A stretch of DNA of 64,000 bases from NCBI RefSeq assembly GCF_036226365.1, contig NZ_CP108462.1, positions 5,595,501 to 5,659,500 of the forward strand, in the 5' to 3' direction. The translations under genes and the position numbers were made by a program. Shown one piece after another: positions 1,141 to 31,815 of the stretch (the stretch's first letter is position 1; every line of letters begins with the position of its first letter). A model generated the notes under the pieces. That model saw only the letters and a program-made list of their open reading frames with translations, had not been told where the DNA came from and did no database searches. The stretch is from Streptomyces sp. NBC_01262 (GTDB taxonomy: Bacteria; Actinomycetota; Actinomycetes; Streptomycetales; Streptomycetaceae).

Positions 1141-2208
1141 TCAGCAGATGCGGGGCAGTTGCTCGCCGATGGGGAGGTCCACCACCCGCGTGCCGCCGAG
1201 CCCCGTGCGGGCGACGACCATGCCGGGGTGGGAGTCGACGCATTCGCCGATGACGGCGGCGTGGGCGCCGAGGGGGTGGGCGTGCATGGCGGCGAGGACG
1301 GCTTCCGCTTCCGCGCGGGGGACGAAGGCGACGAGCTTGCCCTCGTTGGCGACGTAGAGGGGGTCGAGGCCGAGGATGGCGCAGGCGTTGGCGACCTCGG
1401 CGGGGACGGGGACGGCGCGCTCCTGGAGGAGGACGCCGACGGAGGCGGCGCGGGCGATCTCGTTGAGGGCGGCGGCGAGGCCGCCCCGGGTCGGGTCGCG
1501 CAGGACGTGCAGGTCGGGGGTGACGGCGAGCATCGCCTCGACCAGGCCGCCCAGCGCGGCGCAGTCGCTCTCGATCTCGGTCCCGAACTCCAGGCCCTCG
1601 CGGACGCTCATGACGGCGACGCCGTGGACGCCGATCGGCCCGCTGACGATCACGACATCACCGGGCTCGGCCCGCTGCGGGCGGATGTCGACGCCGTCCG
1701 GGACGAGCCCGATGCCGGCCGTGTTGATGTAGACGCCGTCCCCGTGCCCGGACTCCACCACCTTGGTGTCGCCGGTCGCGATCTCCACACCCGCCGCCCG
1801 CGCGGCAGCCCCCAGCGCCTCGGCGACCCTGGCGACCTGGGACATCTCGACGCCCTCTTCGAGGATGAAGCCGCAGGACAGATACGCCGCCCGCGCCCCG
1901 CTCATCGCCAGGTCGTTGACGGTGCCGTTGACGGCCAGGTCGCCGATGCTGCCGCCGGGGAAGAACAGCGGCCGGACGACATAGGAGTCGGTGGAGAAGG
2001 CGAGCCGGGCCCCGCCGAGGGTGACGGTCGCGGAGTCGGCGAGGTCGGCCAGGACCCGGCCGCCGAAGGCGGGGGCGAAGATGTGCTCGACCAGTTCGGC
2101 GGAGAGCTGCCCGCCGCCCCCGTGGCCCATGACGATCCGGGGGTGGTCGCGCAGCGGGGCCGGGCAGGTCCACCCGGAGAAGTCCACTGGAGCAAGGGTG
2201 TCAGCCAA
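1141..2208 (-). CDS. hypE: Hydrogenase maturation protein HypE
   Basis: HypE is an ATP-dependent dehydratase that converts the thiocarbamate on its C-terminal cysteine to thiocyanate, which becomes the cyanide ligand of the NiFe site. The 355-aa protein has the PurM-like glycine-rich [10 protein letters not shown] near residue 27 and ends in PRIC, so the essential terminal Cys is present. The start used is TTG, overlapping the end of hypD by 8 nt; a GTG at VDFSG a few codons in is an alternative. It is the last gene of the hyp operon, with a hairpin 20 bases beyond its stop. Confidence 0.95.
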
Positions 2209-3352
2209 CGGGGCTCGCCTCCATCGGCGTCGTCGGGGTGCTCGGCGTGCTCGGCGTGCTCGGCGTGCTGAGGCGGCGGTAGAGGTAGTACGCGGCGCAG
2301 GCGCCCTCGCTGGAGACCATGGTCGCGCCGAGCGGGCTGCGCGGGGTGCAGGTGGTGCCGAAGGCCTCGCACTCGTGCGGCTTGATCAGGCCCTGGAGCA
2401 CCTCGCCGCTGCGGCAGGCGGCGGGCTCCTGGGTGTTGATCGCGGTGACGGAGAAGCGGTGCTCGGCGTCGTACTCGCGATAGCGCTCCGCCAGCCGCCA
2501 GCCACTCGCCGGGATCACGCCGATGCCCCGCCAGGCCCGGTCGGTGACCTCGAAGATGTCGGCCAGCATGGCCTTGGCGGCCGGGTTGCCCTCGTCGCGT
2601 ACGGCACGGGGATAGGCGTTCTCCATGCGGTGCTCGCCGCGCTCAAGCTGGCGTACGGCCCGGCGTACGCCCTCCAGGATGTCCAGCGGCTCGAATCCGG
2701 TGACGACGATCGGCACCTTGTAGCGCTCGGCCAGCTCGGGGTACTCCCCGGTGCCCATGACGCTGCACACGTGCCCGGCGGCCAGAAAGGCCTGCACGCG
2801 GCATTGGGGGGACTGCATCAGCGAGGCGATGGCGGGCGGGACGCGGACGTGGGAGACGAGCAGGCTGAAGTTGCGGATGCCGAGCTTGCGGGCCTGATGG
2901 ACGGTCATGGCGTTGGGCGGGGCGGTGGTCTCGAAGCCGATCCCGAAGAAGACCACCTCGCGCCCCGGATTGTCCTGGGCGATCTTCAGGGCGTCGAGCG
3001 GGGAGTACACGACCCGTACGTCGCCGCCCTCGCTGCGGACCTGGAAGAGGTCGCGGCCGGTGCCGGGGACCCGGAGCATGTCGCCGAAGGAGCAGAAGAT
3101 CACGTCCGGGCGGGAGGCGATTTCCAGGGCCTTGTCGATGACCTCCAGCGGGGTGACGCAGACCGGACAGCCGGGGCCGTGGATCAACTCGACCTGGTCG
3201 GGGAGGAGCTGGTCGAGCCCGTGCCGGATGATGCTGTGCGTCTGGCCGCCGCACACCTCCATCAGCGCCCAGGGGCGGGTGACGGTGGCGTGGATGTCGT
3301 CCAGCAGCCGCCGGGCGAGGTCGGGGTCCTGAAACTCGTCGAGGTACTTCAC
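2201..3352 (-). CDS. hypD: Hydrogenase maturation protein HypD
   Basis: HypD is the [4Fe-4S] scaffold that, with HypC, assembles the Fe(CN)2CO group. The 383-aa protein has the family cysteine motifs [13 protein letters not shown] and, near the C-terminus, [12 protein letters not shown] with a following GACAAYY. The GTG start chosen overlaps the hypC stop as GTGA and gives MKYLDEF, the usual HypD N-terminus; a longer open frame upstream only runs through hypC. The C-terminus ends in a low-complexity STP-type repeat that is not part of the fold. Confidence 0.96.
2238..2270. repeat. 9-bp tandem repeat in hypD 3' end
   Basis: GTGCTCGGC is repeated three times and followed by a degenerate GTGCTG copy. 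On the coding strand it encodes consecutive Ser-Thr-Pro units at the HypD tail. The unit length is a multiple of three, so copy-number change would preserve frame. Confidence 0.7.
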
Positions 3353-3642
3353 TTCTGTCCGTCCTCCGTGTTCGCGCCGCCGGCGGCCTGCTCCCAGGGA
3401 TCGCCGAACTCCTCCACCAGTAGCCCGAGTTCGGCGAAGAGGGCGAGCGTCTGCCGGGCCGACTCCTCGTCCAGTCGCTGCAGCGCGAAGCCGACATGGA
3501 CGATGGCGTACTCGCCGACCCGCAGATCGGGCAGGTACTCCAGGCACACGTCCTTCACCACGCCGCCGAAGTCGACACTCGCCATCCGGGTGCCGTCACG
3601 ATCCTCGATGTCCAGCACTTTGCCGGGTACCGCCAGGCACAT
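3349..3642 (-). CDS. hypC: Hydrogenase maturation chaperone HypC
   Basis: A small 97-aa chaperone that carries the iron group from HypD to the hydrogenase large-subunit precursor. It starts MCLAVPG, so the invariant Cys2 is exposed after Met removal. A GAGGAGAGG ribosome site precedes the ATG. The stop overlaps the hypD GTG start as GTGA, which implies translational coupling of the two partners. Confidence 0.96.
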
Positions 3643-3655
3643 GGGCCTCTCCTCG

Positions 3656-6112
3656 CTATGGGTGTGGCTGTGGGTGTGTACGTGCGGCGATCACGAGCTG
3701 GCCGAGCGCCAGCCCGCCGTCGTTGGGCGGGACCAGGCGGTGCCGCAGCACCGTGAAGCCGTCCTGCCGCAGCCCCCGGGCGCAGGCGGCGGACAGCACG
3801 GCGTTGGCGAACACCCCGCCGGTGAGCGCCACCGTCTCCAGGCCGTGCCGTTCGCGGGCGGCGGCGCAGACCCGGCGGACCAGGTCGGCCACGGCGGCGT
3901 GGAAGCGTGCGGAGACGGCCTCCACGGGTGCGCCGACGCGCAGGTCGGCGACCACGGCGGCCAGCACGGGCGCGGGGTCGGCGATCAGCGCCGGGTCCGT
4001 CCGGCTGCCGGTTCCGTCCTCAATCGCCGGACGGGCTGAATTCAGCCCGTCCGGCGATTGAGGACAAGCGCAGCCGGCGGGCTGCGCAACCCCGTGAACG
4101 TTCGCGGTCACAGCCTTCCCGAGCGCGAACGCGTAGCCGTTCTGCGGCAGTTCGCCGTACGCGACCGCCGCCGCCTCCAGCTCCACCGCCGCCTGCGCCT
4201 CGTACCCGGCCTCGTGGCAGACCCCCGCCAGCGAGGACACCGCGTCGAAGAGCCGCCCCATGCTGGACGTCGGCACGCAGTTCAGCCCCCGCTCCAACTG
4301 CCGGGCCAGCACAGGTAGTTCGTCCTCCGCGCAGGCGGCGACGCACGGCAGGCCGGCCGTCCAGGGCAGCCCCGCCGCGTACAGGTGGGCCAGCGCCATC
4401 CGGTAGGGGCGGCGGACGGCGGCGTCGCCCCCGGGGAGCGGTACGTAGCCGAGGTGGGCGAAGCGGCGGTAGCCGTCGTAGTCGGCGAGCAGGAACTCGC
4501 CGCCCCACACGGCGCCGTCGTCCCCGTACCCCGTGCCGTCGAAGGCGACGCCGATCACCGGTCGGCGCCCGTCCAGTCCGGCTTCCGCCATGGCGGCGGC
4601 GACGTGGGCGTGGTGGTGCTGCACCCGGTGGACGGGCCGGCCGGCGGCCGTGCGCGCGGCCCAGCCCGCCGAGCGGTAGCCGGGGTGGCGGTCGGCGGCC
4701 AGCAGGCCGGGGGCGACGCCGGTGACGGCGGTCAACTGCCGCACCGCACCGTCGAAGGCGGTGAGGGTCGCGAGGTCGTCCATGTCGCCGATGTGCGCCG
4801 ACATCCAGGCGTGGCGCCCCTCACCGAGGCAGAAGGTGTTCTTCAGGTCGCCGCCGACCGCGAGCGCGGCCGTGACCGGCACGGGCAGGGCGATCGGGAA
4901 GGGCGTGTAGCCGCGCGAACGCCGCACCGGCAGCTCCTCGCCGTCGCAGACGCGGACCACGGAGTCGTCGCACGGGACATGGATGGGCCGGTCGTGGACG
5001 AGCCAGCCGTCGGCGAGCGGGGCGAGCCGGGCCAGGGCCTCGGCGTCGTCGGTGACGATGGGCTCGCCGCCCAGGTTGCCGCTGGTCATCACCAGCAGGC
5101 GCGGCCCCGGCGGGTCGCCCGGCAGCCCGAGCAGCAGGTGGTGCAGCGGGGTGTACGGCAGCATGAAGCCGAGGTCCGCGCAGCGCGGGGCGACGGCCTC
5201 CGCCAACCCGGACCCGTCACCGCCGCTGCGGCGGCGCAGCAGCACGATCGGCCGCCGGCCGCCGGTCAGCAGCTCCCGCTCGGCCGGACCGAGATGCGCC
5301 AGCCGCTCGACGTCGGCGATGTCCCGTGCCATCAGCGCGAACGGCTTGTCGCCCCGCCCCTTGCGGAGCCGCAGCCGCCGGACCGCCTCCTCGTCGCCCG
5401 CGTCGCAGGCCAGGTGATAGCCGCCGAGCCCCTTGACGGCGAGGATCGCGCCCCGCGCCAGCATGCCCCGGGCCCGCGCCACCGGCTCGGGCACATCGGG
5501 CAGGCCCGGCACCACCAGCCGCAGCCTCGGCCCGCAGTCGTGGCAGGAGACCGGCTGGGCGTGGAAGCGGCGGTCGGCCGGGTCGGTGTACTCCCGCTCG
5601 CACCGGGCGCACAGCGGGAAGCCGGCCATCGTGGTGTTCGCCCGGTCGTACGGCAGGGCCGTGACGATGGTGAAGCGCGGCCCGCAGTGCGTACAGGTGA
5701 TGAAGGGGTGCCGGTAGCGGCGGTCGGCCGGGTCGGACAGCTCGGCCAGGCAGTCGGCGCAGGTGGCGGTGTCCGGCGAGACCAGGGTGCGGGCCGCGCC
5801 GCCCGCGCGGGACGGGGCGATGGTGAACCCGGTGAAGGGGACGCGGTCCGCGACCGCCACCGCCAGGTGCGTCACCGACTCGACGACGGCCAGCGGCGGC
5901 GCGTCCGAGCCGATCCGCTCGCAGAACACCCCGACCGCGCCCGGATGCCCCTCGACCTCGGCGACCACGCCCTGGCCGGTGTTGGTGACGTACCCCGACA
6001 GCCCAAGCTCGCGCGCCAGACCGTAGACGAAGGGCCGGAAGCCGACGCCCTGGACCACGCCGCGCACGGTGACGCGACGGCGGTCCACGGCGGTCTCCTC
6101 CGGGGCGGTCAT
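3656..6112 (-). CDS. hypF: Carbamoyltransferase HypF
   Basis: HypF turns carbamoyl phosphate into the carbamoyl group passed to HypE. The 818-aa protein has, in order, an acylphosphatase domain (VQGVGFRPFVYG near residue 20), paired zinc fingers (CADC, CTHCGPRF, CARC, CHDCGPRL), a YrdC-like domain (AVKGLGGYHLACDAG) and a Kae1-like domain (HHHAHVAAAMAE). The start is an ATG sharing one base with the hypB stop (TGATG). The C-terminal domain contains an extra stretch of about 35-40 residues, including QSPDGLNSARPAIED. That stretch is encoded by a 50-bp perfect palindrome and stays in frame. Whether the enzyme tolerates it is unknown. Confidence 0.95.
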   Translation of the reverse strand: MTAPEETAVDRRRVTVRGVVQGVGFRPFVYGLARELGLSGYVTNTGQGVVAEVEGHPGAVGVFCERIGSDAPPLAVVESVTHLAVAVADRVPFTGFTIAPSRAGGAARTLVSPDTATCADCLAELSDPADRRYRHPFITCTHCGPRFTIVTALPYDRANTTMAGFPLCARCEREYTDPADRRFHAQPVSCHDCGPRLRLVVPGLPDVPEPVARARGMLARGAILAVKGLGGYHLACDAGDEEAVRRLRLRKGRGDKPFALMARDIADVERLAHLGPAERELLTGGRRPIVLLRRRSGGDGSGLAEAVAPRCADLGFMLPYTPLHHLLLGLPGDPPGPRLLVMTSGNLGGEPIVTDDAEALARLAPLADGWLVHDRPIHVPCDDSVVRVCDGEELPVRRSRGYTPFPIALPVPVTAALAVGGDLKNTFCLGEGRHAWMSAHIGDMDDLATLTAFDGAVRQLTAVTGVAPGLLAADRHPGYRSAGWAARTAAGRPVHRVQHHHAHVAAAMAEAGLDGRRPVIGVAFDGTGYGDDGAVWGGEFLLADYDGYRRFAHLGYVPLPGGDAAVRRPYRMALAHLYAAGLPWTAGLPCVAACAEDELPVLARQLERGLNCVPTSSMGRLFDAVSSLAGVCHEAGYEAQAAVELEAAAVAYGELPQNGYAFALGKAVTANVHGVAQPAGCACPQSPDGLNSARPAIEDGTGSRTDPALIADPAPVLAAVVADLRVGAPVEAVSARFHAAVADLVRRVCAAARERHGLETVALTGGVFANAVLSAACARGLRQDGFTVLRHRLVPPNDGGLALGQLVIAARTHPQPHP
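4016..4065. repeat. Perfect 50-bp palindrome inside hypF
   Basis: Two 25-base arms are exact reverse complements with no loop, centred on GAATTC at 4038-4043. The arms contain AGCCCGTCCGGCGATTGAGG, a Streptomyces intergenic repeat core that recurs once more here at 31768-31789 with one mismatch. Here it lies wholly inside hypF coding sequence, read without a stop. Confidence 0.9.
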
Positions 6113-6846
6113 CAGTGGGAGTGGCTGTGGGAATGCCCGTGGGCGACCGCCTGGCGGGCCATCACCGGCCGGTGGACGGCGGCGCCCGCCTGCACGGCCA
6201 TCGCCCGCTCCAGCAGCCCGCCGGTGCCCTCGCCGGTCCGCGCGGAGGTGCGGATCACCTCGACCCCCGGGTTGACCTGCCGTACGTTGCCCAGGAAGGC
6301 GGCCTCGTCGAATTCGACGGCCTCGGCGATGTCGGTCTTCGTCACGATCACCAGCTGCGCCAGCCCGAAGGCGGACGGGTACTTCAGCGGCTTGTCCTCC
6401 CCCTCGGTGACCGAGGCCAGCGCCACCCGCAGCGACTCCCCGAGGTCGTAGGAGGCCGGGCAGACCAGATTGCCGACGTTCTCGACGAAGAGCAGCCGGG
6501 TGTCGTCCGGCAGCCACCCCTCGACGTGCGAGCGCAGCATGTCCGCCTCCAGGTGGCACAGCCCGTCGGTGAGCACCTGCTTCACCGGAACGCCCGAACG
6601 GGCCAGCCGGGTCGCGTCGTTCTCGGTCGCCAGGTCGGCCGTGATGGCGGCCACCGGCACCCCGCGCCGCCGGGCGAGGGTCAGCTCGGCCTCCAGCAGG
6701 GCGGTCTTCCCACTGCCCGGACTGGACAGCAGATTGACGATGACGGTCCCGCGAGCCGCGAGCTCCGTACGCAGCGCCTCGGCGCCCCGGTCGTTCTTGG
6801 CGAGCACCGCCCGCTGAAGGTCCTCGACACGGCACATCGCTCTCAC
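6112..6846 (-). CDS. hypB: Nickel-insertion GTPase HypB
   Basis: HypB is the GTPase that, with HypA, inserts nickel into the large subunit. The 244-aa protein has the P-loop SSPGSGKT near residue 41, FVENVGNLVCP and the NKxD-like TKTD motif. The N-terminal CxxCGC high-affinity nickel motif of E. coli HypB is absent. A histidine-rich tail (HGHSHSHSH) is present and may store metal. The start may be the GTG that overlaps the hypA stop as GTGA, or an ATG three codons later. Confidence 0.95.
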   Translation of the reverse strand: MRAMCRVEDLQRAVLAKNDRGAEALRTELAARGTVIVNLLSSPGSGKTALLEAELTLARRRGVPVAAITADLATENDATRLARSGVPVKQVLTDGLCHLEADMLRSHVEGWLPDDTRLLFVENVGNLVCPASYDLGESLRVALASVTEGEDKPLKYPSAFGLAQLVIVTKTDIAEAVEFDEAAFLGNVRQVNPGVEVIRTSARTGEGTGGLLERAMAVQAGAAVHRPVMARQAVAHGHSHSHSH

Positions 6847-7247
6847 TCCCTATCGACAGCAGGTTGGGGCTGGGGCTCGGGCTGGGACTCTGGCTGGGGC
6901 TCGGGCGCCCAGCGCACCTCGGTGATCCGCAGTTCGCGCCCCGACACCAGCTCGGCCGCCGCTCCGTCGCACTCCGGACAGCACAGGTGCGGTGGCATCC
7001 CGGTGTCCCACTCCCGGGCGCACGGCTCGCACCGGGCGCGCCCCGGCACGGGGTCGAAGGACAGCTCGGCCCCGTCCAGGACGGTCCCGGCGCAGACGAG
7101 TTCGAAGCAGAACCGGAGGGCGTCGGGTACGACCCCCGCCAGCTCGCCGACCTGGAGCCGTACGGATTCCACGGCCCGGACCCCGCCGGGGCCCGCCGCT
7201 TCCTCCACCTGCCCCACCACTGCCATGGCGATGGACATCTCGTGCAT
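6843..7247 (-). CDS. hypA: Nickel chaperone HypA
   Basis: HypA delivers nickel together with HypB. The start at the ATG giving MHEMSIA was chosen because His2 binds nickel; an upstream ATG would add three residues and bury it. Two zinc pairs are visible, CEPC and CPEC, about 16 residues apart. The C-terminus is an unusual proline/glutamine/glutamate tail (PEPQPESQPEPQPQP) absent from the folded domain. An 89-bp gap to the gene before it is the only sizeable break within the accessory part of the operon. Confidence 0.94.
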   Translation of the reverse strand: MHEMSIAMAVVGQVEEAAGPGGVRAVESVRLQVGELAGVVPDALRFCFELVCAGTVLDGAELSFDPVPGRARCEPCAREWDTGMPPHLCCPECDGAAAELVSGRELRITEVRWAPEPQPESQPEPQPQPAVDRE

Positions 7248-7336: not shown

Positions 7337-7471
7337 TCACATCGTCGAGATCTTCAGATACCGCCTGAGGTCGGGCAGGTTCGAGACGAGGACGTAGCCG
7401 GCCGCTGCCGCCGCCGCACCGAGCAGGATCTTGGTCACCATGGTCATGTGCTCCTTCGTCGTCTTCGTCAT
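7337..7471 (-). CDS. 44-aa small protein of the hydrogenase operon (DUF6893-like)
   Basis: The ATG overlaps the stop of the maturation protease gene as ATGA, the same junction type as the five before it in this operon, which strongly argues that this short frame is translated. The peptide has a charged N-terminus, a short Ala-rich hydrophobic segment (KILLGAAAAAAGYVLV) and the ending LPDLRRYLKISTM. It resembles small DUF6893 proteins that I recall beside actinobacterial hydrogenases. It may be a single-pass membrane peptide; its role is unknown. Confidence 0.75.
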   Translation of the reverse strand: MTKTTKEHMTMVTKILLGAAAAAAGYVLVSNLPDLRRYLKISTM

Positions 7472-7947
7472 TGGTCGAGCAGGTCCAGCACGAGCTTCAC
7501 GGCCTCGTCCACGGCGGCGGCGACGGGCGCGCTGAGCCCGATGCCGTCGTCCAGGCAGGCCGGTTCGCAGCCCACGACGAGCACCCGGCGCGGTCTGCCG
7601 CCGCCGGTGCTCGCGCTGAGGTTGTCCAGCAGGGCCAGCACGGTGTCCGGTGTCATCCGGTGACCGTCCATCAGCAGCCCCGTCCCGGCCTCCGCTTCCG
7701 CCTCGATGAGGTAGACGGTGCCGGGCGGGCCGCCGCGCTGGCAGGCGTCCAGGAGGACGGCGGTGTCGTAGCCCTCCAGGAGCTGGTACGCCAGGTGCAC
7801 CCCGCGTACGCCGGTGTCGGAGAGCTCGACGTGGCCCGGGAGGTCGAGCTCGGACAGCCGGCGGACCGCCTCGACGCCGAAGCCGTCGTCCCCGGCGAAG
7901 ATGTTGCCGATGCCCGCCACGAGGACGCGGTCCACAATCGTGGTCAT
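7468..7947 (-). CDS. Hydrogenase maturation endopeptidase (HupD/HycI family)
   Basis: This nickel-dependent protease removes the C-terminal tail of the large subunit after nickel insertion. The 159-aa protein shows the family signatures GIGNIFAGDDGFG at residues 12-24 and, around residue 64, an aspartate in the LLDACQRG segment. Its substrate is probably the large subunit encoded at 11102-12886, which still carries a tail to be cleaved. The start overlaps the preceding gene as ATGA. Confidence 0.93.
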   Translation of the reverse strand: MTTIVDRVLVAGIGNIFAGDDGFGVEAVRRLSELDLPGHVELSDTGVRGVHLAYQLLEGYDTAVLLDACQRGGPPGTVYLIEAEAEAGTGLLMDGHRMTPDTVLALLDNLSASTGGGRPRRVLVVGCEPACLDDGIGLSAPVAAAVDEAVKLVLDLLDQ

Positions 7948-10599: not shown

Positions 10600-11105
10600 G
10601 ACGCCCCCGGCCCACGGCCGATCTGGAGCAGCACCGGCTCCCGGGCGGCGGGTTCCGCCTGTTCCACTTCGATATGCGTGATCTCGGGGGCGTAGGCGCT
10701 GACGGCGTCGTCGATGCGCTGCTGGGTGCTGTCGGCGCTGCCGCAACCGCAGCCGCCGCCCGACTCGGCCCCGGTGCGCAGCCGCAGCGTGCCCGAGGCC
10801 TCGTCGAGGTGCAGGACGGTGGCGTCCGCCGCCCCCGCCGCCGTGAGGGCGCGGCCGACCCGGGTGCGGGTGTCCTCGGGGTGGAGGTCGTGCAGGACGA
10901 GCAGGCCGGTGACCAGTTCGTCGGCGAGAAGGGCATCAAGAGTCTCGTCGCCTACGAGTTCGACGACGCGGGCCAGCCCGGTGCCGTACAGGTCCATCAG
11001 GACCCGCACCAGCTCCTCGGCGGCCTGGTTCACGGCGGCGTCGCCGCTCGCGCCGAGGCGGTCCAGGACCTCCTCGACGCGACGGCCGGTCGCTTCGGCG
11101 CTCAT
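10596..11105 (-). CDS. NifU-like iron-sulfur protein
   Basis: A 169-aa protein with a helical N-terminal half and a C-terminal Nfu-like domain. Where NifU/NfuA proteins carry CxxC, this has GGGCGCGSADS, a CxC pair, followed by the usual amphipathic segment (QQRIDDAVSAYAPEITHIEV). It lies directly after the large-subunit gene, the position of the iron-sulfur protein gene hhyE in mycobacterial group 1h clusters. An electron-relay or cluster-delivery role is therefore likely. It overlaps both neighbours as ATGA. Confidence 0.83.
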   Translation of the reverse strand: MSAEATGRRVEEVLDRLGASGDAAVNQAAEELVRVLMDLYGTGLARVVELVGDETLDALLADELVTGLLVLHDLHPEDTRTRVGRALTAAGAADATVLHLDEASGTLRLRTGAESGGGCGCGSADSTQQRIDDAVSAYAPEITHIEVEQAEPAAREPVLLQIGRGPGAS

Positions 11106-12886
11106 CCGCCCATGCCGCTCAGGCCGGTGGGGACGTGCAGCTTCTCCACCGTCTTGCCGCCGCCGACGTACATGTGGACGCCGCAGGGGAGACAGGGGTC
11201 GAAGCTGCGGACGGCGCGCATGATGTCGATGCCCTTGAAGTTCTCGGGCGGGTTCTCCTCGAAGATCGGGGTGTTCTGCACGGCGTCCTCGTAGGGCCCG
11301 GGGGTGCCGAAGGAGTCGCGGACGCTGGCGTTCCACGGGGTCGGCGGGTAGGGGTGGTAGTTGGCGATCTTGCCGTCGCGGATCACCATGTGGTGGGAGA
11401 GGACGCCGCGTACGGCCTCGGTGAAGCCGACGCCGATGGCCTCGTCGGGGACCTCGAACTTCTCCCAGGTCTGGGTGCGTCCGGCGCGGACCTCCGCGAG
11501 GCCCTTCTCGGCGAAGTGCAGCGCGACGGCGGCGGCGTAGGCCTGGAAGTAGGTGCGGGCGCGGTTGCGTTCGAGGGCGTTGCTCCACTTCGGGATCTTC
11601 CACTCGAAGGTGGTCTCCGGCTTGGTGAGGGAGCGCGGCAGGTTGATGACGACCGAGTGCCCGGTGGCCTTGACGTAGCCGATGTCGACCAGCCCGGACA
11701 GCGCGGTGGACCACAGCCGGGCCAGCGGGCCGCCGCCGGTGTCGAGGGCGAGGTGGTCCTTGCCGTCGAACCAGCGCGGGGACATCACCCAGCTGTACTT
11801 GCCGTCGAAGTCGCGCTTCTGCGGGTCCGGGATGGTGTGCTGGTTCCAGGGGTGGCGCGGGTCCACGGGGTTGCCGAGCGGGTCGTGGGTGACGAACTGC
11901 TCCTGGCCCTCCCAGTCCTGGTAGTACGAGCTGCCGAGCAGGATCCGGATGCCGAGGTTGATCTCGGTGAGGTCGTTGGTGACCAGCTTGCCGTCCACGA
12001 CGATGCCCGGGGTGACGAACATCTTGCGTCCCCAGTCCGTCATGTTGGCGTACGTGAAGTCGCAGTGGTCGGGGTCGTTGAGCGCGCCCCAGCAGCCGAG
12101 CATGATGCGGCGGCGGCCGACCTCCTCGTAGCCGGGCAGCGCCTCGTAGAAGAAGTCGAAGAGGTCGTCGTGGAGCGGGACGACGCGCTTCATGAACTCC
12201 ACGTAGCGCATCAGCCGGCTGAGGTAGTCGGTGAAGAGCTGTACGGAGGCGATGGTGCCGACGCCGCCCGCGTAGAGGGTGGAGGGGTGGACGTGCCGGC
12301 CCTCCATCAGGCAGAACATCTCCCGGGTGTAGCGGGAGACCTGGAGCGCCTCGCGGTAGAACTCGCCCTCAAGGGGGTTGAGGGAGCGCATGATGTCGGC
12401 GATGGTGCGGTAGCCGTGCTCTCCGGCGTGCGGGGCCTGCGTGCGCTCGGCCAGCTCCAGGACGCCGGGGTTGGTCTCGCGGACCATCTTCTCGCAGTAG
12501 TCGACCCCGACCAGGTTCTCCTGGAAGATGTTGTGGTCGAACATGTACTCGGCGGACTCGCCGAGGTTGATGATCCACTCGCCGAGGTGCGGCGGCTTGA
12601 CCCCGTACGCCATGTTCTGCGCGTACACCGAGCAGGTGGCGTGGTTGTCGCCGCAGATGCCGCAGATGCGGCTGGTGATGAAGTGCGAGTCGCGGGGGTC
12701 CTTGCCGCGCATGAAGACGCTGTAGCCGCGGAAGACCGACGAGGTGCTGTAGCACTCGGCGACCCGCTTCTGCTTGAAGTCGATCTTCGTGTGGATGCCG
12801 AGGCTGCCCACGATCCGGGTGATCGGATCCCAGGACATCTCCATCAGGCCGCTGCCGTCTCCGGACGCCTTCGTCTTCGGTGCCAT
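11102..12886 (-). CDS. hhyL: [NiFe]-hydrogenase large subunit, group 1h
   Basis: The catalytic subunit that oxidises hydrogen at trace concentration. The 594-aa protein has the N-terminal NiFe ligand motif SRICGICGDNHATC near residue 72 and the C-terminal motif DPCLPCGVH. After that histidine a 23-residue tail remains, ending GLSGMGG, which the operon protease should remove. The sequence is of the high-affinity actinobacterial type once called group 5. It lies 37 bp downstream of the small-subunit gene and is translationally coupled to the NifU-like gene. Confidence 0.95.
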   Translation of the reverse strand: MAPKTKASGDGSGLMEMSWDPITRIVGSLGIHTKIDFKQKRVAECYSTSSVFRGYSVFMRGKDPRDSHFITSRICGICGDNHATCSVYAQNMAYGVKPPHLGEWIINLGESAEYMFDHNIFQENLVGVDYCEKMVRETNPGVLELAERTQAPHAGEHGYRTIADIMRSLNPLEGEFYREALQVSRYTREMFCLMEGRHVHPSTLYAGGVGTIASVQLFTDYLSRLMRYVEFMKRVVPLHDDLFDFFYEALPGYEEVGRRRIMLGCWGALNDPDHCDFTYANMTDWGRKMFVTPGIVVDGKLVTNDLTEINLGIRILLGSSYYQDWEGQEQFVTHDPLGNPVDPRHPWNQHTIPDPQKRDFDGKYSWVMSPRWFDGKDHLALDTGGGPLARLWSTALSGLVDIGYVKATGHSVVINLPRSLTKPETTFEWKIPKWSNALERNRARTYFQAYAAAVALHFAEKGLAEVRAGRTQTWEKFEVPDEAIGVGFTEAVRGVLSHHMVIRDGKIANYHPYPPTPWNASVRDSFGTPGPYEDAVQNTPIFEENPPENFKGIDIMRAVRSFDPCLPCGVHMYVGGGKTVEKLHVPTGLSGMGG

Positions 12887-12923: not shown

Positions 12924-14000
12924 TCAGGGCTTGTGGTAGCCGGTGGTGAGCTTGGTGCCGGTGTGGCGCCACTTCGGCTCCTTGTCCACGGTCTTCGCCG
13001 TGATGCTCCGCAGCCTGCGGATGGCCGCGCCGTACGCGCCGCTGACCGTGCTGGAGACCTTCGCGCCGGGCGGCTCGTCCATGAACGGCATGAACTTGTC
13101 GGGGAAGCCCGGCATGGTGCAGGCGATGCAGATGCCGCCGACGTTGGGGCAGCCGCCGATGCCGTCCATCCAGCCCCGCTTGGGGACGTTGCACTTCACC
13201 ACCGGCCCCCAGCAGCCGATCTTCACGAGGCACTTGGGAGAGTCGTAGGTCTCCGCGAACTCGCCCTGCTCGTAGTACCCGGCGCGGTCGCAGCCCTCGT
13301 GCACGGTCGCGCCGAACAGCCAGGTCGGCCGGAGCTTGTCGTCCAGCGGGATCATGGGGGCGTTCCCGGCGGCCTGGTGCAGCAGGTACGTGAGCGTCTC
13401 GGCGAAGTTGTCCGGCTGGATCGGGCAGCCGGGGACGCACACGATGGGGATGCCGGCCTTGGACTTCCAGCCCCAGCCGAGATAGTCGGGCACGCCCATG
13501 GCGCCGGTGGGGTTGCCCTCCATCGCGTGGATGCCGCCGTAGGTGGCGCAGGTGCCGATGGCGACCACGGCCAGCGCCTTGGGCGCGAGGCGGTCGATCC
13601 ACTCGCTGGTGGTGATCGGCTGGCCGGTCTCGGGGTCGTCGCCGAAACCGCACCAGTAGCCCTCGGCCTTGATCGCCTCGTTGGGGATCGAGCCCTCGAC
13701 GACCAGCACGAACGGCTCGATCTCGCCGCGGTCCGCCTTGAAGAACCACTCGATGAACGCGTCGGCGCCCTGCACCGGACCACACTCGAAGTCGATCAGC
13801 GGCCAGTGCACGGCGATCTTCGGCAGGCCGGGCAGGGCCCGCAGTGCGATGTCCTCGATGCTCGGGTTGGTCGCGGCGGTCAGGGACACCGAGTCGCCGT
13901 CACAACTGAGCCCGGCGTTGATCCACAGGATGTGGATCGGCGCCTCGTCCTCGTCGTTGGCGACGGCGGTCCGGCCGGTTGCTGCGGTTGTCGCATCCAT
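12924..14000 (-). CDS. hhyS: [NiFe]-hydrogenase small subunit, group 1h
   Basis: The electron-transfer subunit, 358 aa from the ATG preceded by AGGAGG with 7-nt spacing. There is no Tat signal, so it should face the cytoplasm. The proximal cluster motif reads CDGD (Cys33, Asp36) where most hydrogenases have CxxC, matching the 3Cys-1Asp cluster known from the oxygen-insensitive Ralstonia actinobacterial-type enzyme. Further cluster cysteines lie in GTCATYGG, CVPGCP, EGCDRAG, PKCLVKIGCWG and GGICIACTMPGFPDKF. It forms a heterodimer with the large subunit. Confidence 0.95.
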   Translation of the reverse strand: MDATTAATGRTAVANDEDEAPIHILWINAGLSCDGDSVSLTAATNPSIEDIALRALPGLPKIAVHWPLIDFECGPVQGADAFIEWFFKADRGEIEPFVLVVEGSIPNEAIKAEGYWCGFGDDPETGQPITTSEWIDRLAPKALAVVAIGTCATYGGIHAMEGNPTGAMGVPDYLGWGWKSKAGIPIVCVPGCPIQPDNFAETLTYLLHQAAGNAPMIPLDDKLRPTWLFGATVHEGCDRAGYYEQGEFAETYDSPKCLVKIGCWGPVVKCNVPKRGWMDGIGGCPNVGGICIACTMPGFPDKFMPFMDEPPGAKVSSTVSGAYGAAIRRLRSITAKTVDKEPKWRHTGTKLTTGYHKP

Positions 14001-30070: not shown

Positions 30071-30907
30071 TCAGGCCTTGACGCTTCCTGCGGTGAGCCC
30101 GCCGACGATGAAACGCTGGAAGATCGCGAACACGCACACCACGGGCACCGCGATGATCGTCGCGGTGGCCATCAGCGGCCCCCACGAGGTGCCGTACTGG
30201 CCGACGAAGCTGTTCAGCACGACGGTGACCGGCTGTACGTCCGGCTGCTTCGCCAGCGTGAGGCCGAAGATGAACTCGCCCCAGCCGAGCAGGAAGGACA
30301 GCCCCGCCACCGCGATCAGCCCCGGCACCATCACCGGAACGACGATACGCAGCAGCACACCGAGCCGCCCGCACCCGTCGACCAGCGCGGCCTCCTCCAG
30401 CTCGACCGGCACCGCGCGCAGCAGCGGGCGCAGCACGATCACGGCGAAGGGCAGGGTGAGCGTGGTGTCGGCGGCGATCAGGCCCAGGTAGGTGTTGTCC
30501 AGCCCGGCGCGGCGCTCCAGGATGAACAGCGGGGCCGCCAGCACGATGCTGGGCAGCAGCTGGGCGATGAGCAGCGCGAGCACCACGGTCCCCGCGCCGC
30601 GCATCCGGAGCCGGGCGAGCGCGTAACCGAGCGGCACACCGAGCACCAGGGTCAGGGCGACCACGCCGCAGGAGATCACCAGGCTGTTGAGCAGGGCCCT
30701 GGGCAGCGTGTCGTTCGAGAACGCCGTCGCGTAGTTCTCCGTCGTGAACGGCGCCGGGATCCACTGCGGGTGCGCCACCAGGATCCGGTCCGGCTTCTTC
30801 AGGCTGGTGCCGGCCATCCACAGCACCGGCAGCAGGAACACCGCCGTGATCAGCGCCGCGATCGCGGTGAGCAGCCAGGGGCGGCCGGTGCGCCGGGTCG
30901 TTCTCAT
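30071..30907 (-). CDS. Sugar ABC transporter permease (MalG type)
   Basis: A 278-aa inner-membrane subunit with six predicted helices. The ATP-binding-protein contact loop EEAALVDGCGRLGVLLRIVVP is present, shortened from the usual EAAxxDGA form. The ATG overlaps the MalF-type stop as ATGA. No ATPase gene is in the operon, so a shared MsiK-type ATPase elsewhere is expected, as is usual in Streptomyces. Confidence 0.92.
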   Translation of the reverse strand: MRTTRRTGRPWLLTAIAALITAVFLLPVLWMAGTSLKKPDRILVAHPQWIPAPFTTENYATAFSNDTLPRALLNSLVISCGVVALTLVLGVPLGYALARLRMRGAGTVVLALLIAQLLPSIVLAAPLFILERRAGLDNTYLGLIAADTTLTLPFAVIVLRPLLRAVPVELEEAALVDGCGRLGVLLRIVVPVMVPGLIAVAGLSFLLGWGEFIFGLTLAKQPDVQPVTVVLNSFVGQYGTSWGPLMATATIIAVPVVCVFAIFQRFIVGGLTAGSVKA

Positions 30908-31815
30908 GCTCCCGCCCTCTCCTCGTGGCGCAGCCGGCGTACGTAGAGCCCCGCCGCGAGCAGCGGCACGGCGAGCAGCAGCAGCCCGGCGGCGGCGCCC
31001 TGGCCGAACCGGAAGTAAGCGAAGAAGACCTGGTAGACGTAGAGCGACAGCACGTCGGTGGCGTCGACCGGGCCGCCTCCCGTCATCACGAAGACCAGGT
31101 CGAAGACCTTGAAGGTGTAGATCAGGCCGAGCAGCAGCACCGTCACCGACACCGGCCGCATCAGCGGGAGGGTGATCAGCCGGAAGCGCTGCCAGGCGCT
31201 CGCGCCGTCGATGGCGGCCGCCTCGTGCAGCTCGCGGTCGATGCCCTGCAGCCCGACCAGGAGCAGCAGCATGTTGAAGGGCACCCCCACCCAGATGTTG
31301 GCGAAGATCACCCCGCCCAGCGCGGTGCCCGGGTCGCTGAGCCAGTCGTGTGCGAGCGCCCCCAGGCCCGTCGAGCGCAGCAGCGCGTTGTACGCGCCGG
31401 AGTCGCCGTCGAGCATCCACTTGAACAGCGTGCCGCTGACCACCGGCGGCAGCAGCCAGGCCATCAGCAGCAGTGACCGCAGCAGCCCGTTCAGCGGGAA
31501 CGGCCGGGCGAAGAGCAGGGCCAGCGCGAAGCCGATCGTGAACTGGAACACCAGCGACCCCGCGGTGAACACCAGCGACACGCGCACGGCATGCCAGAAC
31601 GCCGGGTCGTCCACGGTGGCCCGGTAGTTGGCCAGCCCGTCGAAGGGCGCCGGCCCGCCGAGCAGGCTGACCAGGCCCACGTCGTGGACGGAGGTCCAGG
31701 CGTTGTAGAGCAGCGGGTAGGCCAGGAAGAGGGCCAGGAAGACAAGCCCGGGCAGCGAGAGCCATCTAGCCCGTCCGGCGTTTGAGGACACGCCCGAAGG
31801 GCGTTTGGGGGTCAC
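30904..31815 (-). CDS. Sugar ABC transporter permease (MalF type)
   Basis: A 303-aa permease with six helices and the EAA loop LHEAAAIDGASAWQRFRLI. The GTG overlaps the binding-protein stop (GTGA). The first 20 or so residues are encoded by a Streptomyces repeat element (31768-31810), so the N-terminus is not conserved sequence; a GTG inside that element could be the true start. Pairs with the MalG-type subunit. Confidence 0.92.
   Translation of the reverse strand: MTPKRPSGVSSNAGRARWLSLPGLVFLALFLAYPLLYNAWTSVHDVGLVSLLGGPAPFDGLANYRATVDDPAFWHAVRVSLVFTAGSLVFQFTIGFALALLFARPFPLNGLLRSLLLMAWLLPPVVSGTLFKWMLDGDSGAYNALLRSTGLGALAHDWLSDPGTALGGVIFANIWVGVPFNMLLLLVGLQGIDRELHEAAAIDGASAWQRFRLITLPLMRPVSVTVLLLGLIYTFKVFDLVFVMTGGGPVDATDVLSLYVYQVFFAYFRFGQGAAAGLLLLAVPLLAAGLYVRRLRHEERAGA
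31768..31810. repeat. Intergenic-type repeat at the SBP/permease junction
   Basis: The stretch shares the AGCCCGTCCGGCG-TTGAGGAC core with the hypF palindrome (one mismatch in 22 bases) and then holds a hairpin, ACGCCC-GAA-GGGCGT (31790-31804). It lies within the 5' end of the permease coding region. Confidence 0.75.

Follow-up and report, generated by a model that had tools for sequence, protein, structure and literature searches.

How does a long, perfect hairpin come to lie inside a conserved metallo-enzyme maturation gene and to be translated as part of its product? The question is raised by hypF of Streptomyces sp. NBC_01262, which is found in a 64,000-nucleotide stretch of the chromosome, referred to here as the window. 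The gene belongs to a hypA-hypB-hypF-hypC-hypD-hypE series located downstream of a maturation protease gene and of the genes for both NiFe-hydrogenase subunits (Table 1). Genes were delimited with a home-made caller based on codon log-odds, for which 7263 codons of the window served as the training set and which can miss or merge short genes. The hypF product reaches 747.5 bits against the TIGR00143 equivalog profile, well above the cut-off of 466.1 (profile run on 3656-6103), and contains the acylphosphatase, HypF fingers, Sua5_yciO_yrdC, HypF_C and HypF_C_2 domains of Pfam. It is the single HypF of the genome: a HypF search of the genome gave 14 matches, one being hypF itself and the other 13 being copies of the repeat described below.

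Table 1. Features of the hyp locus and of the repeat copy inside hypF; positions are those of the window, except in the first row, which gives contig positions.
Feature	Position	Strand	Basis or remarks
Window	5,595,501-5,659,500		single-contig genome of 9.74 Mb
hypE	1141-2205	minus	TIGR02124
hypD	2201-3352	minus	TIGR00075
hypC	3349-3642	minus	TIGR00074
hypF (carbamoyltransferase HypF), 818 aa	3656-6112	minus	ATG at 6112; codon-based gene call
Repeat footprint in hypF	3989-4114	minus	126 bp = 42 codons, AVTANVHGVAQPAGCACPQSPDGLNSARPAIEDGTGSRTDPA; 21-copy alignment
Flank of repeat, ending ...GACCCGGCG	3989-4015	minus	21-copy alignment
Perfect 50-bp palindrome, core of repeat	4016-4065	none	RNA hairpin -50.8 kcal/mol
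Second, small hairpin of repeat	4068-4087	minus	8-bp stem, 4-nt loop, GCGCAGCCCGCCGGCTGCGC on hypF strand
Remnant of one outer inverted repeat, GCTGTGACCGCG	4103-4114	minus	21-copy alignment
hypB	6112-6837	minus	TIGR00073
hypA	6843-7247	minus	TIGR00100
Hydrogenase maturation protease	7468-7947	minus	TIGR00072
Nickel-dependent hydrogenase large subunit	11102-12886	minus	PF00374
NiFe hydrogenase small subunit	12924-14000	minus	PF01058, PF14720

The palindrome reported in the first-pass annotation was confirmed. Its two arms of 25 nt each (4016-4040 and 4041-4065) are 100% complementary with a spacer of 0 nt, they lie in the Kae1-like domain (Pfam HypF_C_2, residues 518-802), and the minus-strand translation of hypF runs through them without a stop, as ...AVTANVHGVAQPAGCACPQSPDGLNSARPAIEDGTGSRTDPA... 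The 50 bp are not the whole unit, as had been proposed, but the core of a repeat of about 130-150 bp. An alignment of 21 genome copies, the one in hypF included, which is oriented as the hypF strand, extends far past the core. The footprint delimited in this way amounts to 42 codons and to a net gain of 35 residues over the two nearest orthologues, in agreement with the 35-40 extra residues estimated previously. Compared with full copies, the copy in hypF is incomplete at both ends: it lacks the outermost CTAG(T/C) beyond the remnant of the outer inverted repeat and, on the opposite flank, about 27 bp of the outer end (CGGTCACCGCRCTAG type). Both junctions with hypF preserve the frame. The 126-nt footprint folds as RNA at -91.1 kcal/mol (z -10.1; none of 200 shuffles equally stable). 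With 96.9% identity to the consensus built from the 20 other copies, joint highest among the 21, the copy in hypF is probably young.

The presence of this repeat in hypF is not a matter of chance. The 50-mer, with up to 3 mismatches, is found at 17 places in the genome and at 0 in a reversed control, and the 19-nt half-site, with up to 2 mismatches, gives 205 matches against 1 in a control. In the window, where 0.13 matches to the half-site are expected with up to 3 mismatches, there are three, two of them being the arms of the palindrome. At 31767-31785, a half-site with 1 mismatch coincides with the start called for an ABC-transporter permease gene (30904-31791, minus), the true start of which may lie just downstream of the half-site.

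The 21 copies share a layout composed of an outer inverted repeat, a hairpin with an 8-bp stem, the central palindrome, the motif GGAACCGG...CCGGACGG.CCCGG, and a second outer repeat. Read in the hypF direction, a full copy starts with an outer end of the CTAG-YGCKGTGRCCG type, followed by about 20 bp, the small hairpin (GCGCAGCC-CGCC-GGCTGCGC) and then the palindrome; its last part, GGAACCGG..CCGGACGG.CCCGG, precedes a second outer end, the complement of the first. The small-hairpin motif, with up to 3 mismatches, occurs at 30 places genome-wide and at 0 in the reversed control, accompanied by the palindrome in 20 cases, by half of it in 7, and by neither in 3. Three positions outside the core there is a variable base, at which the two arms agree in 30 of 33 loci of this genome, where shuffling gave a mean of 16.1 and a maximum of 24; for the family the figure is 42 of 51 loci, against a shuffle mean of 19.2 and a maximum of 32. 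The arms change together, either because the hairpin is under selection or because one arm is copied onto the other. Two other classes of structured sequence touch upon the family. Larger repeats of about 400-450 bp with nested inverted repeats (L179-L184 in G000:C1, e.g. 1,359,112-1,359,498) contain the half-site GGTTCCGTCCTCAANCGCCGGACGGGCTG near their ends, which is common to both repeat families, and short hairpins that have the CGCCGGACGGGCT core in common with the long repeat, but not its flanks, stand where genes end (L145, L149, L151, L155, L159, L160, L167, L170, L174 and L176 in G000). The CGCCGGACGGGCT core may also be a generic gene-end hairpin.

At least one frame is open over the hypF footprint in all 21 copies. 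In 16 of them frames +0 and -2 are open together; in 14 of these 16, hypF included, no other frame is open, and in the remaining 2 others are open too. As the core of the repeat is a palindrome, these two frames mirror each other, and there is therefore, as a rule, one readable frame per strand; hypF uses +0.

The position of the copies relative to genes agrees with the earlier view of a dispersed repeat that normally resides outside genes. Gene calls at the 30 small-hairpin places put 29 outside called genes, 14 being convergent, 14 co-directional and 1 divergent with respect to their neighbors, and leave hypF as the sole exception. For the 34 palindrome loci of the genome the corresponding figures are 18 convergent, 15 co-directional and 1 inside; 21 of these loci are the long repeat, and the other 13 are mainly short hairpins behind stop codons. 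Among further half-site places with enough flank, 37 of 38 lie between genes and the remaining one (L188) in the tail of an open reading frame. Since called genes cover about 93% of the window, yet the copies lie outside them, the repeat strongly avoids genes. This pattern fits repeats that are filtered rather than aimed, the survivor being one that landed in the right frame and in a variable loop.

Some copies do make contact with genes. A called open reading frame of a truncated gene crosses half of the palindrome in 2 of the 29 non-hypF copies. The copy at L166 abuts an MFS-type (MFS_1) N-terminus that stops at profile position 70 of 347, that at L165 a HIT-domain N-terminus that stops at position 40 of 98, and that at L146 a DUF805 C-terminus that begins at position 53 of 111; in the first two of these, the frame of the truncated gene stays open up to the repeat and stops inside it. 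In-frame spanning of the repeat at L146, L149, L166 and L173, which came from a stop-to-stop screen based on GC only, is unsupported by codon-based calls with starts. At L188 (3001-3945; G000:C1 near 7,347,909-7,348,853), a glycosyltransferase-like frame takes its last 25 residues from half a repeat and its stop codon from the CTAG end of the repeat, and this appears to be a second case in which the repeat supplies codons, here for a C-terminal tail. At L146, L165, L166 and L188, contact with the repeat thus goes with the loss or replacement of a gene end, and hypF is the one gene that stayed whole.

Comparison with orthologues indicates that the extra residues are particular to this HypF. The insert is absent from all 80 named orthologue loci, none of which has its residues, and from all 21 loops that could be extracted from 29 further loci. 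Twelve-base words of the arms occur in 6 of 109 orthologue loci, never paired, and were taken as chance. In the search of relatives, a HypF match was obtained in 45 of 61 genomes, some of the matches being merely weak and acylphosphatase-like. The two nearest orthologues (G001 and G013) are 80-81% identical to this HypF over the first ~660 residues, and their loop region has 67 residues against 102 here. The site itself is variable: between a second pair of anchors, the loop ranges from 47 to 102 residues in 97 usable orthologues, this HypF having 89 (107 orthologues matched the pattern, 10 values of 24 or less were dropped as false early matches, and 2 orthologues were unmatched). In the HypF of G023 (L127) an even longer, unrelated stretch rich in proline and glycine occupies the insert site, and in the solved HypF structure 3vth the two aligned stretches on either side of it are about 16 residues apart. 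Tolerance of the insertion, which had been regarded as unusual, is therefore not surprising here, given how widely the loop length varies at this point and the longer unrelated stretch that G023 carries there. The remainder of the protein is well conserved: among the 286 columns that do not vary in 18 other HypFs, it departs at T400 and S731 and agrees at the other 284.

In an AlphaFold model computed with 19 sequences, which is mediocre (mean pLDDT 61, with other parts also below 50; an earlier model had a mean pLDDT of 49), residues 666-701 have pLDDT below 50 and no secondary structure. They sit between strands 660-663 and 706-709, and the next two blocks of ten residues have pLDDT values of 78 and 97. 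With no aligned relatives for the insert, a low pLDDT is to be expected there, and it constitutes weak evidence for a loop.

Beyond this genome the repeat is patchily distributed. The palindrome, with up to 3 mismatches, is present in 26 of 394 genomes of the family, the richest of which hold 23, 19, 18, 17 and 15 copies; such patchiness, combined with the large number of copies in these few, fits an amplifying repeat. Sixty loci from relatives, drawn mainly by E-value from at least about 100 distinct places among the matches listed (some places were skipped, a few were picked for long open frames, and two on short contigs were omitted), comprise 36 convergent, 22 co-directional and 2 divergent positions, and 0 of the 60 lie inside a called gene. 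Eight of them, without an exact core near the center, were set by approximate position. In the underlying search at most 19 candidates were scored per genome. The hypF loops of three genomes of the same genus (L116, L122 and L125) are identical to those of loci named Actinacidiphila (L066, L044 and L110). The host is thus probably an Actinacidiphila rather than a Streptomyces, so that, of the "Streptomyces intergenic repeat" of the first-pass annotation, the repeat was borne out and the genus probably has to be changed.

The ends of the repeat bear on how it may have spread. In full copies the start lies near CTAGYGCKGTGRCCG and the end near its complement, which gives terminal inverted repeats that are incomplete in hypF; these outer inverted repeats suggest a non-autonomous element. 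Tetramers resembling CTAG are found at the ends of copies, CTAG itself at both ends in L147 alone among the 21, and no clear target-site duplication was seen in these 21 copies. As the outer ends are missing from the hypF copy, simple transposition alone does not explain it. No parent element was recognized in the genome: the pair of inward-facing end motifs (up to 1 mismatch, 0.8-3 kb apart) is absent, in a search that is weak because the motif matches as often in the reversed control (56) as in the genome (50). A mobilizer of the RAYT or IS200 type found no support, with 8 Y1_Tnp matches in the genome, five of them with open frames of 142-148 aa, and 0 with the half-site core within 1.5 kb. 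The DDE_5 profile gives 5 matches. One of these, at L189 (G000:C1:9,539,541-9,545,555), belongs to an insertion that we take to be IS701-like, flanked by CTAG on both sides and located at a CTAGTGCTGTGACCG site that resembles the end of the repeat. This insertion was considered as the parent and discarded, since its own ends (TAGGRCTCCGTTAGG type) differ from those of the repeat. From the CTAGTGCTGTGACCG site of L189 onward, a block of 2343 bp is also present in L194 with 99.9% identity, and the transposase frame that it contains is presumably IS110-like.

We consider it highly probable that a seemingly young, non-autonomous, dispersed palindromic repeat, similar to MITEs or REPs, entered a variable loop of hypF, where it is read in frame and tolerated. 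We infer that it arrived as a mobile element of about 130-150 bp, which would have inserted where a hypervariable loop separates two strands of the second Kae1-like subdomain, and that part of one end (~27 bp) was lost during or after insertion, which would have left 126 bp, a multiple of three. The gene would then read the stop-free frame that the repeat offers on that strand. As a probably disordered loop, the 42 residues would let HypF fold around them and most likely still work, and the insertion would be neutral or nearly so.

A different account, which we regard as rather unlikely, takes the repeat for a terminator or mRNA 3'-end module, which within hypF would act as a partial terminator or attenuator and lower the expression of hypC, hypD and hypE unless covered by ribosomes. 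The great stability of the fold and the covariation of the arms, both in this genome and in the family, speak for it, as does the orientation of neighboring genes: 14 of 29 non-hypF copies are convergent and 1 divergent, whereas the 56 neighboring gene pairs of the window include 8 convergent and 9 divergent ones (a rough yardstick, as many of these pairs have no gap), and of the 60 loci of the family 36 are convergent and 2 divergent. Moreover, weak U tracts and long stable hairpins are frequent in Streptomyces terminators (PMC12207403). The repeat itself, however, has no U run after the palindrome, a location downstream of genes is also expected if insertions in genes and promoters are selected against, and the hairpin in hypF is translated and would presumably tend to stay open. 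In a more specific form, the palindrome would be a translation-coupled attenuator, with ribosomes crossing it allowing transcription into hypCDE and slowed translation allowing the 25-bp hairpin to end the transcript. We hold this to be quite improbable; if true, a mobile element would have turned into an internal regulator of hydrogenase maturation.

It is improbable that the insertion inactivated or weakened HypF and that the hydrogenase system is drifting toward a pseudogene state. The genome has no HypF match other than hypF and the repeat copies, and other copies abut truncated genes (MFS_1, HIT and DUF805, see above), but the frame is full, the invariant columns are kept almost without exception, the length of the insert is divisible by three, and its site varies among orthologues; in addition, hypA to hypE, the protease and both subunits are all recognized by family profiles. 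An assembly artefact, in which the repeat was misjoined into hypF, seems very improbable. The palindrome is repeated exactly elsewhere in the genome, and hairpins are difficult for some sequencing methods; against this, the genome is a single contig, the frame is intact at both junctions with the same conservation of invariant columns, and the copy in hypF carries substitutions and a truncated end that are particular to it. Translational bypassing or removal of the repeat from the RNA comes to mind for a hairpin element inside a gene, and the yeast Magnusiomyces is reported to deal in this way with palindromic elements of its mitochondrial genes (PMC6649704). Nothing requires it here, as the frame is open throughout, and we give it almost no credence.

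The tolerated insertion that we favor has counterparts. RPEs are palindromic elements of 105-146 bp with terminal inverted repeats that lie in frame within 19 reading frames (PMC2229807, PMC10969869), and a guanylate kinase that bears one is active (PMC2229807). The repeat described here resembles them in being palindromic and of similar size (within about 105-150 bp), in its contiguous open frame, and in forming an internal protein segment in a conserved gene. It differs in that a called gene contains the motif in only 1 of its 30 copies, as opposed to those 19 reading frames, and in being a GC-rich repeat from another phylum. Recurrent in-frame insertion in many unrelated genes was not observed, the counts being that 1 of 30 motif copies, 1 of 38 half-sites (the C-terminal tail) and 0 of 60 loci from relatives. 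REPs of the GTAG and CGTC families are found mostly between co-directional and convergent genes, downstream of genes; their ends supply TAG stops, and some copies are inside open reading frames (PMC3733652). The present repeat is likewise extragenic and downstream of genes, and its end supplies a stop codon at L188, but REPs measure 20-40 bp against ~130-150 bp here, although half-sites are dispersed here too, and the link to RAYT tyrosine transposases, near which REPs often lie, was not found in this genome within 1.5 kb. MITEs such as ERIC, Correia/NEMIS and RUP are short and non-autonomous, with outer inverted repeats and open frames able to fuse in frame (PMC2229807); full copies of our repeat share the short length and terminal inverted repeats, whereas a parent insertion sequence was not found in the weak end-motif search described above. 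A long, stable, GC-rich hairpin after genes is also typical of Streptomyces intrinsic terminators (PMC12207403), from which the repeat differs by its copy in a translated gene and by being dispersed with conserved flanks. We recognized no earlier description of this family in Streptomycetaceae among open-access titles and abstract openings, a field that leaves subscription papers mostly outside.

The in-frame insertion had at first been considered unusual. In-frame palindromic insertions are known from RPE, intragenic REP and ERIC, and the hypF case is therefore not unprecedented; by analogy, it would represent a known kind of event, here in another lineage. Outside Rickettsia, it is a clear example of a protein that accommodates a hairpin repeat as one of its internal segments; the host is a GC-rich actinomycete and the protein a conserved metallo-enzyme maturase. 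It also offers a natural test of whether a perfect 25-bp hairpin interferes with transcription or translation when it lies within an operon.
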